From positions 1-38,213 of the forward strand of contig JAAYBP010000200.1 of NCBI GenBank assembly GCA_012730075.1: a DNA stretch of 38,213 bases, given 5' to 3'. The position numbers and the translations under genes are program-made. The notes under the pieces were generated by a model. That model had not been told where the DNA came from. It ran no database searches and saw only the letters and a list, made by a program, of their open reading frames with translations. Source of the stretch: Acidimicrobiales bacterium. Its GTDB lineage: Bacteria; Actinomycetota; Acidimicrobiia; Acidimicrobiales; Iamiaceae. Shown one piece after another: positions 211 to 6,650 of this stretch (position 1 is the first letter of the stretch; the number at the start of each line of letters is the position of its first letter).

Positions 211-1392
211 TCAGCCTCCCGCCGCGGCGCTCAGCGCCCGGTCGAGGTCGGCGCGCAGGTCGGCGGCGTCCTCGAGACCGATCGACATGCGGATCGTGCC
301 GGGGCCGATGCCGACCGCCTCCATCTCGTCGGGGAGCAGGTTGACGTGCGTGGTCGACGCCGGGTGGGTCACGAGCGTCTCGGGGCCGCCGAGCGACGAG
401 GCGAGCTGGGCGACCTCGACCGCCTCGACGAACCGGCGCCCCGCGTCGAGCCCGCCGGGCAGGTCGAAGCAGAGGAGTCCGCCGGTGAGGCGCATCTGGC
501 GGCGGGCCAGGTCGTGCTGCGGGTGCGAAGGCAGGCCCGGGTGGCGGACGTTCGCGGCGCGGTCGTCGGCGTCGAGCCAGGTGGCCAGCTCCAGGGCGGT
601 CCCGGTCTGGCGGGCGAAGCGCACCGGCAACGTGCGGATGCCGCGGATGCCGTTGGCGGCGTCGTACGGCGAGGCCGTGGCGCCCTGGAGGACGGCGAAG
701 CCGGTGAGCCACTGCACCAGCTCCTGGGACGTGGCGACCACGCCGAGGGTGGCGTCGTTGTGGCCGGCGAGCGCCTTGGTGGCCGAGTGGACGACGATGT
801 CGACGCCGTGGTCGATCGGGCGTTGGCCGAGCGGCGTGGCGAAGGTCGAGTCGACGACGGTCATCGGCCCGGCGATGGCGCCCAGCTCGTCGAGGTCGAC
901 CAGGTCGAGGCGCGGGTTGGCGGGCGTCTCGGCCCACACCAGCACCGTCTTCCCGGGGCGGACCGCGGCCGCCATCGCCCCCGGCTCGGTGCCGTCGACG
1001 AACGTCACGTCGATGCCGAAGCGGGGACAGACCGCCTGGAACAGGAGTTGGGTGCCGGCGTAGATCTGCCGGGCGGCGACGATGTGGTCGCCCTGGGAGC
1101 ACAGGCCGAGCACCACCGCGGCGACCGCTCCCATGCCCGAGCCGAACGCCCGGGCCGCCTCGGCGCCCTCCAGCTCGGCGACGAGCCGCTCGAAGTCGTT
1201 GACGGTCGGGTTGCCGTACCGGGAGTAGAAGCGGTCGCCGCCGACCGCGAGGGCGGCCTGGCGGGCCTCGTCGACCGAATCGGAGACGAACGTCGACGAC
1301 GCCCACACGACGGGGGCGAGGGCGGGCGAACAGGACTGCCGTCCGCCGCGGACGGCGACGGTGTCGGGATGGAGGTCGGACGACCCGGTCAT
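211..1392 (-). CDS. Cys/Met metabolism PLP-dependent trans-sulfuration enzyme (cystathionine gamma-synthase or homoserine sulfhydrylase type)
   Basis: A 393-residue fold-type I PLP enzyme of the Cys/Met metabolism family. It probably condenses an O-acylated homoserine with cysteine or sulfide. Visible motifs are SRYGNPT at 57-63, VVDSTFATP at 179-187, the PLP lysine K206 in SATKALAGHND, and the C-terminal SSLGGPETLVTHPAS block typical of cystathionine gamma-synthases and related lyases. It lies 34 bases downstream of metX, which makes the acylhomoserine substrate, so a role in methionine synthesis fits. Family members (MetB, MetZ, MetC, methionine gamma-lyase) differ by few residues, and I cannot assign the exact reaction; the length favours MetB/MetZ over the longer MetY enzymes. 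An AAGGGA stretch about 11 bases before the ATG is a plausible ribosome site. Expression is probably controlled by the same SAM-responsive leader as metX. Confidence 0.88.
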   Translation of the reverse strand: MTGSSDLHPDTVAVRGGRQSCSPALAPVVWASSTFVSDSVDEARQAALAVGGDRFYSRYGNPTVNDFERLVAELEGAEAARAFGSGMGAVAAVVLGLCSQGDHIVAARQIYAGTQLLFQAVCPRFGIDVTFVDGTEPGAMAAAVRPGKTVLVWAETPANPRLDLVDLDELGAIAGPMTVVDSTFATPLGQRPIDHGVDIVVHSATKALAGHNDATLGVVATSQELVQWLTGFAVLQGATASPYDAANGIRGIRTLPVRFARQTGTALELATWLDADDRAANVRHPGLPSHPQHDLARRQMRLTGGLLCFDLPGGLDAGRRFVEAVEVAQLASSLGGPETLVTHPASTTHVNLLPDEMEAVGIGPGTIRMSIGLEDAADLRADLDRALSAAAGG

Positions 1393-1426: not shown

Positions 1427-2662
1427 TCACGACGCGACCTGGTTGAGGAGTGGGGCGAGCACGGCGGTCATCTGCTCGTCCTCGAGCAGGAAGGCGTCGT
1501 GGCCGTGGGGGCTGTCGAGCTCGACGTAGCGGGCGTCGTGGCCGCGGTCGGCGAGCGCCATGGCGAGGTCGGCGGACTGGTATGCGGGATACAGGGCGTC
1601 GCTGGATATGCCGATCGCGACCACCGGCGCGGAGATGCGGGCGAGCGCCGAGCCCAGGCCGCCCCGGCCGCGACCGAGGTCGTGGAGGTCCATCGCCTTG
1701 GTGAGCAGCAGGTACGAGTTGGCGTCGAAGCGGCGGATCAGCTTGTCGCCGTGGTGCTCGAGGTAGCGCTCGACCTGGAAGCGCTGCCAGAGGTCGAAGT
1801 GTCCACCGGCGAGCGGTTCGACCTCGTCACGGCCGAACTTGTCGGTGAAGACCCGGTCGGTGCGGAACGTGATCTGGGAGATCATGCGGGCCAGGGCGAG
1901 GCCCTGGTGGGGGCCGTCGCCGGGCTCGGCGTCGTAGTAGTCGCCGTTGCGCCAGAGGGGATCGAGGGCGATCGCCCGCCGACCGGTGCTCCAGTAGGCG
2001 ATCTGCTGGGCGGTGGCGGCGCCGCACGTGGCGATCGGCACGAGGAGGCGGACCCGGTCGGGGAACATCACGCCCCACTCGAGCACCTGCATGCCGCCCA
2101 TCGAGCCGCCGACGATCGCCGCGAAGCGCTCGATGCCGAGGGCGTCGGCCAGGCGGGCCTGGGTGCGGACCATGTCGCGGATCGTGACCACGGGGAACGA
2201 CGAGCCGTACCGCCCGCGGCGGTCGGGCAGGTGCGACGCCGGGCCGGTCGATCCCTGGCAGCCGCCGAGGACGTTGGCGCAGACGACGAACCAGCGGTCG
2301 GTGTCGAGGGCGCGGCCGGGGCCGATCAGTCCTTCCCACCAGCCGGGGGTCGGCTGCCCCGGTCCGGCGGGGCCGGCGGCGTGCGCGTCGCCGGTGAGGG
2401 CGTGGCAGAGGAGGATCGCGTTGTCCGCGGCGGGCGCCAGGCGGCCCCACGTCTCGAAGGCGACCGTCACGTCGCTGAGCTGTCCGCCCCCCTCGAGGAT
2501 GAAGGTGCGGTCGACGAACGTGCGCAGGAACTGCCGCTCGCCGGCCGGGTCGCTCGGCCGCCACGCGCCCGACGCGGGCAGGGTGCTGGTGTGGGCGCCG
2601 GTCCAGTCGGGCTTGGCGAGCGCGGAGCGGCCCACGTCGGTGACGTCGATGTCGTCCTCCAC
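1427..2662 (-). CDS. metX: Homoserine O-acyltransferase (MetX)
   Basis: An alpha/beta-hydrolase-fold enzyme that transfers an acyl group from acyl-CoA to homoserine, the committed step of methionine synthesis. I chose the GTG at 2662 because GAGGAG lies 6 bases upstream; the open frame runs further but through the leader RNA. The 411-residue product has HALTGDAHAAG near 87-97, the nucleophile elbow GGSMGG (185-190, Ser187), the SSDALYP segment with the catalytic Asp, and SPHGHDAFLLE with the catalytic His close to the C-terminus. These are the standard MetX triad elements. Acetyl versus succinyl donor specificity cannot be read from motifs with certainty. It is the first gene of the operon, with the PLP sulfur enzyme and a DNA glycosylase downstream, and is preceded by a SAM-riboswitch-like element. 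Confidence 0.93.
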   Translation of the reverse strand: MEDDIDVTDVGRSALAKPDWTGAHTSTLPASGAWRPSDPAGERQFLRTFVDRTFILEGGGQLSDVTVAFETWGRLAPAADNAILLCHALTGDAHAAGPAGPGQPTPGWWEGLIGPGRALDTDRWFVVCANVLGGCQGSTGPASHLPDRRGRYGSSFPVVTIRDMVRTQARLADALGIERFAAIVGGSMGGMQVLEWGVMFPDRVRLLVPIATCGAATAQQIAYWSTGRRAIALDPLWRNGDYYDAEPGDGPHQGLALARMISQITFRTDRVFTDKFGRDEVEPLAGGHFDLWQRFQVERYLEHHGDKLIRRFDANSYLLLTKAMDLHDLGRGRGGLGSALARISAPVVAIGISSDALYPAYQSADLAMALADRGHDARYVELDSPHGHDAFLLEDEQMTAVLAPLLNQVAS

Positions 2663-2737
2663 GCTTCGCTCCTCGTTCCGAGGGGCGGACCGGGTGCCTG
2701 CGCCGGGTGGATCCCGGACACTTCGTTGCCGGCGAGC

Positions 2738-2830
2738 CGACCACATCCCCACCGGAGGTGGGAGGCACCTTGGGTGTCCGTCCCAGGTTGCCGGACCCGG
2801 TGCACCGGGCCGCTCTTGATGACGCCCGGC
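2738..2830 (-). promoter_or_regulatory. SAM riboswitch-like (S-box superfamily) leader of metX
   Basis: Read on the minus strand the leader contains, in order, the S-box blocks ATCAAGAG, CCGGCAACC and CCAAGGTGCC, followed by a pyrimidine-rich turn and CCCACC-TCC-GGTGGG, a short hairpin. CATC near the 5' end can pair with GATG after that hairpin to close P1. The second helix is a bare CCCGG-TGCA-CCGGG stem, much shorter than the kink-turn arm of classic SAM-I. TGGG/CCCA forms the third stem. It ends about 75 bases before the metX start, the gene expected for this class. Whether it is SAM-I, SAM-IV or the I/IV variant needs a covariance-model search. Confidence 0.8.
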
Positions 2831-2836
2831 AGCGTA
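2831..2836 (-). promoter_or_regulatory. -10 element of the metX operon
   Basis: TACGCT on the minus strand. Transcription would start about 7 bases downstream, right at the 5' edge of the riboswitch-like fold, so the whole leader RNA would be made. No convincing -35 hexamer is visible. Confidence 0.45.
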
Positions 2837-3519: not shown

Positions 3520-5457
3520 TCAACGCCCGCGCGACGCCCCGGGCAGGCGGGCGCGCCACCAGTCCACGACCGGATCGTCGGGCGCGAGGCCGTACGCGGC
3601 GGTGAGGTCGCCGGCCACCTCGACCAGCGGCGTCCCGGCCGACAGCGCGTCGGCGGCGGCGTACCAGCGGTCGCGATCGCTCGGCAGGGGCACGGCGAGG
3701 ACCTGGCGGGCGGCTAGCTTCAGCGCGTCGGCGCTGCGGGCGGTGCCGGCGGACTCCGCCAGCGCCCAGGCGGTGACCGGCGGGGCCGACAGGGCGGCGG
3801 CGACCCGACCCGTCCAGGCGACCGGATCGTCGACGTCCGGGCCCGGTTCGACCGCGACGAGCGGCACGGCTGGCAGGTAGCGGCCGTCGGGATCGGCGAT
3901 CGCCTCGACCACGCGGGTCTGCGGGGCGACCAGCACCTTGGGTCCGAGGCGGGCGGCGAACCAGACGCCCACCGTGGCGTCGGGGCCGCCGCCGTCGGCG
4001 AGGGCCGCGAGCGCGAGGCGACGGACCACCGGGCGCATCCTGACCCGCCCGGCGATCCGGGCCGGCCGCTCGCCCCACGCCACGTGCCACGGGTCGACCA
4101 GCCCGACCGTCAGCACCGCCAGGACGTCGGGGTCGTCGGCGACGTCCTGCCCGTCCGACCCGTCGGCGGCATCGAGGTCCTCGACGAGCGGGGCGAGGGC
4201 GTAGTGGTGGCGACGGAACCCGGCGGCGGCGGTGGCCAGGTCGGCGAGCGTGCCGGCCTCCGGGTCGAGCACGACCGCCGGGACGCCGCGGGCCGCGGCC
4301 AGGAGCGGCGACCACGTGCGCGGGGTCGGGACCGGCGCATCGCCGGCCTCGCGCCAACGCTCGACGCCGACCGCGAGGCGCACGCGGGCCGGCGCGCCGG
4401 GGGGCCGGTCGGCGGGGGCCGGGCCGCCGCTGCGACGTTCCAGCACGACCGCGCATACGTCGACCGCGGCGTCGGCGAACGCCGGTCCGTCGGCGATCCA
4501 CAGACCGATCAGGTCGGCCGCCTCGACCACCGCGGCGCGCACACCCTCGGCGTCCCGCGTACCGAGCACCGATTCGGGCTGCACCAGCACCACCCGCCCT
4601 CCGGGCCGCACCGATTCCAGCCCGGCCAGCAGGAACAGGGCGGCGGCGTCGACGTAGCCGCGGACGGCGTCGCCGTACCGGTCTCGGAGGGCGGCGGCGG
4701 TCGCCCGGTCCCGGGCGGTGCCCCGGCGGAGCTGGCCCAGGAACGGCGGGTTCCCCACCACGAGGTCGACGCCGCGCGCCACCGCCCCGTCGAGCAGACC
4801 GTCGGCCCGACCGATTCGGCGACCGGTCCGCGCCACGGCCGCCGCCGGGTCGGCGCCGTGCTCCACCGCGGCGAGGGCGAGCGCGGTGCGGGCGACGGCG
4901 ACCGCGACCGGGTCGAGGTCGGTGCCCGACACCCGGTCGAGCGCGTCGAGCGGATCGGCCCCGGCGCCGACGGCCCGGTCGATCGCGGCGACGAGGAACG
5001 CGCCCCCGCCCACTGCCGGGTCGTGCACCGTGGCCAGCCGCGGATCGAGGGCCGCGCCGGGCCGATCGGACCGGGGGACGGCCCGCGGCTCGGGGCCACC
5101 GCCGGGCGCGGCACCACCCCCACCGATCGTCGACCCGCCCCCGCCGACGAGCGGGAGGGACGTCGGACCGGCCGCCCACCGGATCAGGGCGGCGGCGAGG
5201 GCGACGGGCGTGTAGTGGGCACCCCGGCCGCGGCGCTCGCCGGGGGCCAGCAGGGCCTCGTGCAGCTGACCGGCCGCCTGGGCGGGACGCCAGCCCGCCG
5301 GGGGGTCCGCCAGCAGACGTCCGAGCGGGGTCGCGGCGCCGCCGGACGGCCCGACGGGACCCGCGGCCGCCCAACGGTCGACGCGCGCCTGCTCGTCGAG
5401 GTCGGGCGACAGCAGCTCGGCGGCCGCCGCCAGCCAGCGCCCGACGGCGGGGTCCAC
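3520..5457 (-). CDS. N6-adenine DNA methyltransferase, Eco57I/N6-DNA-methylase type, without visible partner
   Basis: A 645-residue SAM-dependent DNA methyltransferase. GAHYTP (79-84) is the family's N-terminal motif X region, DPAVGGGAFL (146-155) the SAM-binding motif I, GTDLDP (178-183) motif II, and NPPF (236-239) the catalytic motif IV of amino-methyltransferases acting on adenine. After a conserved YVDAAALFLLAGLESVRPGGRV segment, the C-terminal 300 residues probably hold the target-recognition part. I see no PD-(D/E)XK or HNH nuclease motif in it, and no restriction, ATPase or specificity gene next to it. A Gly/Pro-rich insertion at 103-125 precedes motif I. The start is a GTG 20 bases after the helicase stop; there is no good Shine-Dalgarno, so the start is moderately sure. 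It could be an orphan epigenetic methylase or the remnant of a type IIG-like system. Confidence 0.82.
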   Translation of the reverse strand: MDPAVGRWLAAAAELLSPDLDEQARVDRWAAAGPVGPSGGAATPLGRLLADPPAGWRPAQAAGQLHEALLAPGERRGRGAHYTPVALAAALIRWAAGPTSLPLVGGGGSTIGGGGAAPGGGPEPRAVPRSDRPGAALDPRLATVHDPAVGGGAFLVAAIDRAVGAGADPLDALDRVSGTDLDPVAVAVARTALALAAVEHGADPAAAVARTGRRIGRADGLLDGAVARGVDLVVGNPPFLGQLRRGTARDRATAAALRDRYGDAVRGYVDAAALFLLAGLESVRPGGRVVLVQPESVLGTRDAEGVRAAVVEAADLIGLWIADGPAFADAAVDVCAVVLERRSGGPAPADRPPGAPARVRLAVGVERWREAGDAPVPTPRTWSPLLAAARGVPAVVLDPEAGTLADLATAAAGFRRHHYALAPLVEDLDAADGSDGQDVADDPDVLAVLTVGLVDPWHVAWGERPARIAGRVRMRPVVRRLALAALADGGGPDATVGVWFAARLGPKVLVAPQTRVVEAIADPDGRYLPAVPLVAVEPGPDVDDPVAWTGRVAAALSAPPVTAWALAESAGTARSADALKLAARQVLAVPLPSDRDRWYAAADALSAGTPLVEVAGDLTAAYGLAPDDPVVDWWRARLPGASRGR

Positions 5458-5477: not shown

Positions 5478-6650
5478 TCAGGCGGCGCCGCTGTCGGCGG
5501 TGGGATCCCAGGCGGTGAGGTCGGCGAGGCGCGGGTCGTTCGAGAAGATCTCGACGATCGGCAGGTCGATGCCGATGCGCTTCTGGAGCCGCCGCACGTC
5601 GAGCTCCTCGTTCCACAGCGCGAGGGTGACGACCAGGCCGCGCTCGCCGGCCCGGGCGGTGCGGCCGGAGCGGTGGAGGTACGCCTTGTGGTCCTCCGGC
5701 GGGTCGCCGTGGATCACGACGTCGACGTCGTCGACGTGGATGCCGCGGGCGGCGACGTCGGTCGCGACGAGCACCGGGAGCTTGCCGTCGGCGAAGTCCG
5801 CCAGGCTGCGCTCGCGGAGGCGCTGGGGAAGGTCGCCGTGGATCGCCCCGGCCTTCACCCCCTCGTCGCGCAGCTCGGCGACGAGACGGTCGGCGTAGCG
5901 CTTGGTGCGGGTGAACACGATGGTGCGGTTGGACGCCCGGCCGATGGCGGCGATGACCTTCGCCTTGTCCATCTGGTGCACGAGCAGGAAGCGGTGCGTC
6001 ATCTCCTCGACCGTCACCTGGGCGGACTCGACCTCGTGGCGGACCGGGTCCCGCTGGTAGCGGTCGACGAGGGTCTTCACCGCGCCGTCGAGGGTCGCGG
6101 AGAAGAGGAGGGTCTGGTGGGTGCCCTCGATGTGGCGGAGCAACCACTCGACCTGGGGCAGGAAACCCATGTCGGCCATGCGGTCGGCCTCGTCGACGAC
6201 CACGATGTCGACCGCGGCCAGGCTGGCCTCTCCCCGGTCGATCAGGTCGATCATGCGGCCGGGCGTGGCCACGACGACCTCGGCCCCCTGGGCGAGCCGG
6301 CGGACCTGGGCCTCCATGTTCGCCCCGCCGTACACGGCGGCGACCCGGACACCGACGGCCTCGCCCAGCGGGGCGAGCTCGTCGGAGACCTGCACCGCCA
6401 GCTCGCGGGTGGGTACGAGGACCAGGGCGTGGGGCCGTCGCGGCTCGGCGGGCTCGACCCGCTGGAGGGTCGGCAGCCCGAACGCGAGCGTCTTGCCCGA
6501 GCCGGTCTTGGCCTTGCCGCAGACGTCCCGTCCGGCGAGTGCGTCGGCGATGGTGAGCTGTTGGATCGGGAACGCCCGATCGATTCCCCGCTCGGAGAGG
6601 GCCTTCACCAGGGCCGCATCGACTCCGAGCGATTCGAAGCTGTTCGTCAT
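5478..6650 (-). CDS. DEAD-box ATP-dependent RNA helicase
   Basis: A 390-residue compact RNA helicase that unwinds short RNA duplexes in the cytoplasm, probably in ribosome assembly or mRNA turnover. It has the Q-motif region FPIQQ (27-31), Walker A AKTGSGKT (47-54), PTRELA (80-85), TPGR (129-132), DEAD (153-156), SAT (184-186), ARGIH (301-305) and HRSGRTAR (326-333), all in family order. The protein is little more than the two RecA-like domains and lacks the long basic C-terminal tail of CsdA/DeaD, so I give no gene symbol. The ATG at 6650 is preceded by TAGGCT ending 10 bases away. It leads the minus-strand pair with the DNA methyltransferase. Confidence 0.92.
   Translation of the reverse strand: MTNSFESLGVDAALVKALSERGIDRAFPIQQLTIADALAGRDVCGKAKTGSGKTLAFGLPTLQRVEPAEPRRPHALVLVPTRELAVQVSDELAPLGEAVGVRVAAVYGGANMEAQVRRLAQGAEVVVATPGRMIDLIDRGEASLAAVDIVVVDEADRMADMGFLPQVEWLLRHIEGTHQTLLFSATLDGAVKTLVDRYQRDPVRHEVESAQVTVEEMTHRFLLVHQMDKAKVIAAIGRASNRTIVFTRTKRYADRLVAELRDEGVKAGAIHGDLPQRLRERSLADFADGKLPVLVATDVAARGIHVDDVDVVIHGDPPEDHKAYLHRSGRTARAGERGLVVTLALWNEELDVRRLQKRIGIDLPIVEIFSNDPRLADLTAWDPTADSGAA

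Follow-up and report, generated by a model that had tools for sequence, protein, structure and literature searches.

The RNA that lies 5' of metX in this Acidimicrobiales bacterium is, as judged from its sequence, an ordinary and complete SAM-I/IV riboswitch (RF01725), and it is predicted to sense SAM. Our main reading, to which we give a probability of roughly 0.7, is that this riboswitch represses the translation of metX when SAM is plentiful, and that it does so through an exchange of pairing between its P3 arm and the linker that follows the aptamer. SAM-I/IV riboswitches have been described mostly from metagenome sequences, and have been crystallised without an expression platform. The metX leader adds no new riboswitch class; what it brings is a SAM-I/IV riboswitch for which the host order (Acidimicrobiales) and the gene (metX) can be named and the proposed switch can be tested. 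Here and below, the window is the whole stretch of 38,213 nucleotides that was analysed.

When the window is scanned with all of Rfam, RF01725 is the sole family to score above gathering. It matches positions 2827-2712 of the minus strand with 44.6 bits, where gathering requires 41.1, and covers model positions 1-99 of 99; on a 361-base local region the match has E=3e-6 and outscores the other SAM-clan models. The first-pass annotation, which named no strand, had recognised conserved blocks of the SAM-I superfamily, and these are indeed present on the minus strand: ATCAAGAG at 2820-2813, GGCAACC at 2792-2786 and CAAGGTGCC at 2772-2764. The three blocks together with the RF01725 match are far beyond chance. 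Our lineage model, R1, scores the window RNA, which is one of its own training sequences, at 117.7 bits. The same annotation had offered two identities, a SAM-I/IV variant or a still shorter form. The full-length match bears out the former; the latter fails, the aptamer having P4, P5 and PK-2. It had also named, as grounds against itself, the lack of any SAM-model hit and of covarying pairs, and had proposed a search with RF00162, RF00634 and RF01725 and an alignment of metX leaders. What we find is clearly the opposite: RF01725 is the best clan match and stands above gathering, and pairs covary in alignments of 26 and of 79 leaders. The features of the leader and its genes are as follows.

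2712-2827, minus strand: complete SAM-I/IV aptamer (RF01725 and lineage model R1)
2744-2821, minus strand: P1, CATC 2821-2818 with GATG 2747-2744, 4 pairs (100% of cells paired in 79 leaders)
2793-2813, minus strand: P2, 8 pairs with one bulged C, a TGCA loop and no internal loop (5 of 7 counted pairs change on both sides)
2764-2792, minus strand: P3 arm GGCAACCTGGGACGGACACCCAAGGTGCC and SAM-binding core, with L3 CGGACA at 2780-2775 (P3 arm identical to that of PDB 4L81, 28 of 28 bases)
2748-2762, minus strand: P4, CCCACC-TCC-GGTGGG, 6 pairs (4 of 4 counted pairs with double-sided changes)
2728-2741, minus strand: P5, GTCGG-CTCG-CCGGC (4 of 4 counted pairs with double-sided changes)
2715-2720, minus strand: 3' strand of PK-2, TGTCCG, 6 pairs with L3 CGGACA (91.7% of cells paired; 5 of 6 pairs double-sided)
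2831-2836, minus strand: -10 element TACGCT of the metX promoter (TANNNT position kept in related leaders)
1427-2662, minus strand: metX, homoserine O-acetyltransferase family, 411 aa from GTG 2662 (NCBIfam NF001209)
211-1392, minus strand: Cys/Met metabolism PLP enzyme (PF01053, 371.6 bits)

In the window aptamer P4 is placed between P3 and P1, P5 lies 3' of P1, and J1/2 reads AAGA. The pairs of P2 run G-C, bulged C, G-C, G-U, three C-G and two G-C before the TGCA loop. That is, the five contiguous C-G/G-C pairs adjoining the loop, which the first-pass annotation had taken for the whole of a minimal P2, are only the tip of an eight-pair helix, the loop itself having been read correctly. Since P2 contains no internal loop, it has neither a kink-turn nor a P2a/P2b split, and an L2 pseudoknot (PK-1) is not evident in the window aptamer. 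The annotation was right, then, that the kink-turn and this pseudoknot are lacking, as the definition of the class requires; a pseudoknot partner does exist, in the PK-2 strand TGTCCG at 2720-2715. The full extent of the aptamer is 2827-2712. The interval that had been given, 2738-2830, went no further than P1, and for this reason the 3' part with P5 and PK-2 escaped notice; P4 had been left unnamed.

SAM-I (S-box, RF00162) riboswitches carry a kink-turn in P2 and a pseudoknot between L2 and J3/4, and they lack P5 and PK-2. The window RNA shares the SAM core and P4 with them, but its P2 has no internal loop, and within the clan RF00162 is not the model that matches best. With SAM-IV (RF00634) it shares the SAM core, P5 and PK-2, but it differs in its unsplit P2, its P4 and the want of an evident PK-1, and RF00634 is likewise not the best match. 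SAM-I/IV is distinguished from SAM-IV by just these features, P2 being split into P2a and P2b in SAM-IV, which has PK-1 and no P4 (PMC6890682); the missing internal loop of P2 belongs to the first description of SAM-I/IV (PMC2864571). The crystallised SAM-I/IV RNA (PDB 4L81), whose sequence is printed in PMC5393176, agrees with the window in its unsplit P2, P4, P5 and PK-2 between L3 and the tail, without kink-turn or PK-1, and the two are the same at 82 of 91 aligned positions in a gapped alignment. By comparison with 4L81, the window RNA has a longer P2 (8 pairs, TGCA loop) and a PK-2 of 6 pairs whose tail is TGTCCG; its host order can be named, and, unlike the crystallised RNA, it comes with a full expression platform. 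The altered J1/2 letter of 4L81 (AUCACGAG) also occurs in close relatives of the window. The 4L81 aptamer, moreover, shares 89 of 95 aligned bases with a metX leader from an Acidimicrobiia bin (L069 2259-2376, L067 2244-2376), so that its metagenomic source was probably an Acidimicrobiia bacterium. As a separate observation, in the J1/2 (CATCANGAG) of family f1 leaders one A of the otherwise conserved AAGAG varies among A, C, T and G, the letter in 4L81 being C.

The aptamer is widespread among relatives of the window. Within its own family 20 of 24 genomes have a match, and none of the 17 with a completeness of 80% or more lacks one; among relatives overall 33 of 61 do, 15 of these 33 falling below the Rfam cut-off. 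The lineage model finds the aptamer in 40 of the 62 named metX loci searched (most records with it being titled Acidimicrobiia, Acidimicrobiales or Actinomycetota bins) and, of 296 genomes sampled from the class, in 90. Judged from this set of relatives, SAM-I/IV riboswitches would commonly regulate methionine synthesis in Acidimicrobiia. In a plain MAFFT alignment of 26 leaders 98.3% of cells are paired, and on each of five measures the observed value lies beyond those of all 500 shuffles. In 79 leaders, which are kin and include some overlapping records, so that the counts are not independent events, 97.6% of cells are paired, 22 of 34 pairs have changed on both sides, and 183 cells carry double-sided changes, versus 48 in shuffles; sliding the structure along the alignment lowers pairing to 33-51%. 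PK-2 was left out of the alignment model, and its five covarying pairs are therefore an independent test.

The first-pass annotation had placed a -10 element such that the RNA begins at P1, and the related leaders agree: TANNNT occurs 7-15 bases before P1 in 51 of 79, compared with 6.6 expected from shuffles, and its distance to P1 is nearly constant, mostly 8-9 bases. With TACGCT at 2836-2831, the predicted 5' end of the RNA is no more than a few bases away from P1, and we expect transcription to start near 2824, at the foot of this helix.

The riboswitch sits upstream of metX, as had been annotated, in a divergent region. The reading frame from GTG 2662 encodes MetX (NF001209 at 471 bits versus a cut-off of 331), and matches homoserine O-acetyltransferases of the PDB, to 3.8e-96; GAGGAG at 2674-2669 is its Shine-Dalgarno sequence. 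The gene for the Cys/Met PLP enzyme is the probable second gene of a metX operon; none of the NCBIfam matches listed for this enzyme reaches an equivalog cut-off. From what is established for the class, the RNA would bind SAM and regulate metX, and the context of metX and a Cys/Met PLP enzyme fits this role. The longest call of the metX frame, 441 aa from GTG 2752, begins inside the aptamer and probably has the wrong start; gene callers may pick it. Elsewhere in the window, a minus-strand frame at 3520-5374 has N6_Mtase and Eco57I methylase domains (PF02384, PF07669), and a DEAD-box helicase gene (5478-6650) adjoins it.

Between the aptamer and the Shine-Dalgarno sequence there is a linker of about 40 bases, in which two overlapping elements can be drawn.

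2683-2699, minus strand: anti-P3 element AGGCACCCGGTCCGCCC, proposed partner of P3 in the apo state (P3-linker duplex -27.5 kcal/mol)
2667-2687, minus strand: anti-SD/SD hairpin CGCCCCTCG-GAA-CGAGGAGCG, proposed OFF state

We infer SAM binding, the direction of control and two-state switching as follows. Transcription would start at the foot of P1. Binding of SAM would lock P1, P3 and the pseudoknot PK-2 that L3 forms with the tail, and would leave the linker free, so that its C-rich strand CGCCCCTCG could pair with the Shine-Dalgarno sequence GAGGAG and turn translation off. Without SAM, the linker (AGGCACC..GGTCCG.CCC), an imperfect antisense copy of P3, would open P3, and the resulting duplex would take the anti-Shine-Dalgarno strand along with it, freeing the ribosome site. 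Because the antisense copy overlaps the anti-Shine-Dalgarno strand, such a switch would work by opening P3 and not P1. SAM-I riboswitches usually switch by exchange of a P1 strand. We lean towards the view that a competing P3 antisense copy, which in some of these bacteria repeats the PK-2 strand (GGTGTCC) and which overlaps the anti-Shine-Dalgarno strand, is the platform of SAM-I/IV in Acidimicrobiia, and P3 exchange is a reasonable, testable addition.

The complementarity between P3 and the linker is non-random. In 18 of 20 family leaders the linker contains either GGCACC, against the 3' strand of P3, or GGTGTCC, the repeat of the PK-2 strand, against L3/P3; the other two have a shorter AGGCAC (L099) and GGCGCC, whose pairing with GGTGCC includes a G-U pair (L025). 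Across the 20 leaders the P3-linker duplex beats dinucleotide-shuffled linkers with a mean z of -2.03, 11 of 20 reaching p<0.05, p-values that overstate independence since the leaders are kin; the P2, P4 and P5 controls in the same leaders have no excess over shuffles (-0.44 to -0.09). Altered arms come with altered linkers: L3 GGACAAC is matched by linker GTTGTCC in L005, and GGACGCCC by GGGCGTCC in L112, while the linker of L111 is an almost perfect antisense of its P3 arm. In the group of L040, L043 and L065 the 5' side of P3 with L3 (GGGAGGGA) resembles the Shine-Dalgarno sequence GGGAGG, and a single strand, CCCTCCC, can pair with either. Pairing each arm with its own rather than a swapped linker yields p=0.0002 for P3 in 54 leaders and 0.006 in 23 distinct arms, but this result is not decisive because P2, a control, passes as well when all leaders are used (0.0004, as against 0.12 with distinct arms). 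A pairing of the P1 strand at the RNA 5' end with the linker, which in some leaders sets GGTGACC against GGTCATC, was dropped at an own-versus-swapped p of about 0.08.

In the fold model of the window, the unpaired share of the Shine-Dalgarno sequence is 22% when the aptamer is formed and 79% when the P3-linker duplex is. Two-state folding with the aptamer enforced gives a Shine-Dalgarno accessibility of 0.27 for native versus 0.41 for shuffled linkers, and the P3-linker state is favoured with native linkers (-6.7 kcal/mol; window -9.0) and disfavoured with shuffled ones (+2.8). The rise in accessibility upon forcing the duplex is partly trivial, shuffled linkers reaching 0.56, and so what is informative is that holo accessibility is lower and that the duplex is stable. 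Three of the 20 family leaders (L020, L027, L028) gain no accessibility, and in two (L008, L022) the duplex state is not favoured. Minimum-energy folding of whole leaders is uninformative because the RNA is so GC-rich: the free folds do not of themselves display the switch, their predicted minimum is a structure other than the aptamer, and in most of them the Shine-Dalgarno sequence is paired too.

The same aptamer could instead hinder the ribosome directly, through formation of PK-2 and P5, the complementarity of the linker being GC-rich background. In seven leaders (L049, L053, L055, L058, L106, L108, L116) the Shine-Dalgarno sequence follows immediately after the PK-2 strand, as in TGTCCGAGGAG followed by ATG. 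This makes direct occlusion plausible there and suggests that those lineages use a platform differing from that of the window. In the window, however, the Shine-Dalgarno sequence lies some 40 bases past PK-2, and the complementarity is specific to P3, both against shuffles and against the other arms; we consider direct occlusion of metX unlikely. Slightly less probable still is control of transcription, by attenuation or Rho-dependent termination. SAM-I riboswitches often act in this way, and Rho dependence would leave no consensus signal, but a good Shine-Dalgarno sequence and its complementary strand are present in the leader, and the lack of any intrinsic terminator found in the metX leader also counts against it.

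That the RNA might represent a distinct, shortened class of SAM riboswitch is suggested by an Rfam score only slightly above gathering and a P1 of only four pairs. Every helix of SAM-I/IV is present, however, as is PK-2, and the core is near-identical to that of the crystallised RNA; the complete anatomy refutes this reading, to which we give very little credence. Least probable of all is a decayed, non-functional remnant, for which we have no supporting points: the promoter is conserved, the helices are intact with compensatory changes, metX is intact, and the aptamer is found in all well-covered genomes of the family. Translational control by P3-linker exchange is the reading we prefer.

Two further variants occur among the relatives. 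In family f50, the genomes of one genus, about 1 Mb in size, have a low-scoring version (32-42 bits) of 91-93 bases, possibly a really shortened SAM-I/IV RNA. The other, at L003 1501-1622, resembles SAM-I/IV but has nothing of the usual L3/PK-2 sequence, its loop being GTTTCGCC and its tail GTGCGAAG; it precedes a gene with a homoserine dehydrogenase-like N-terminus.
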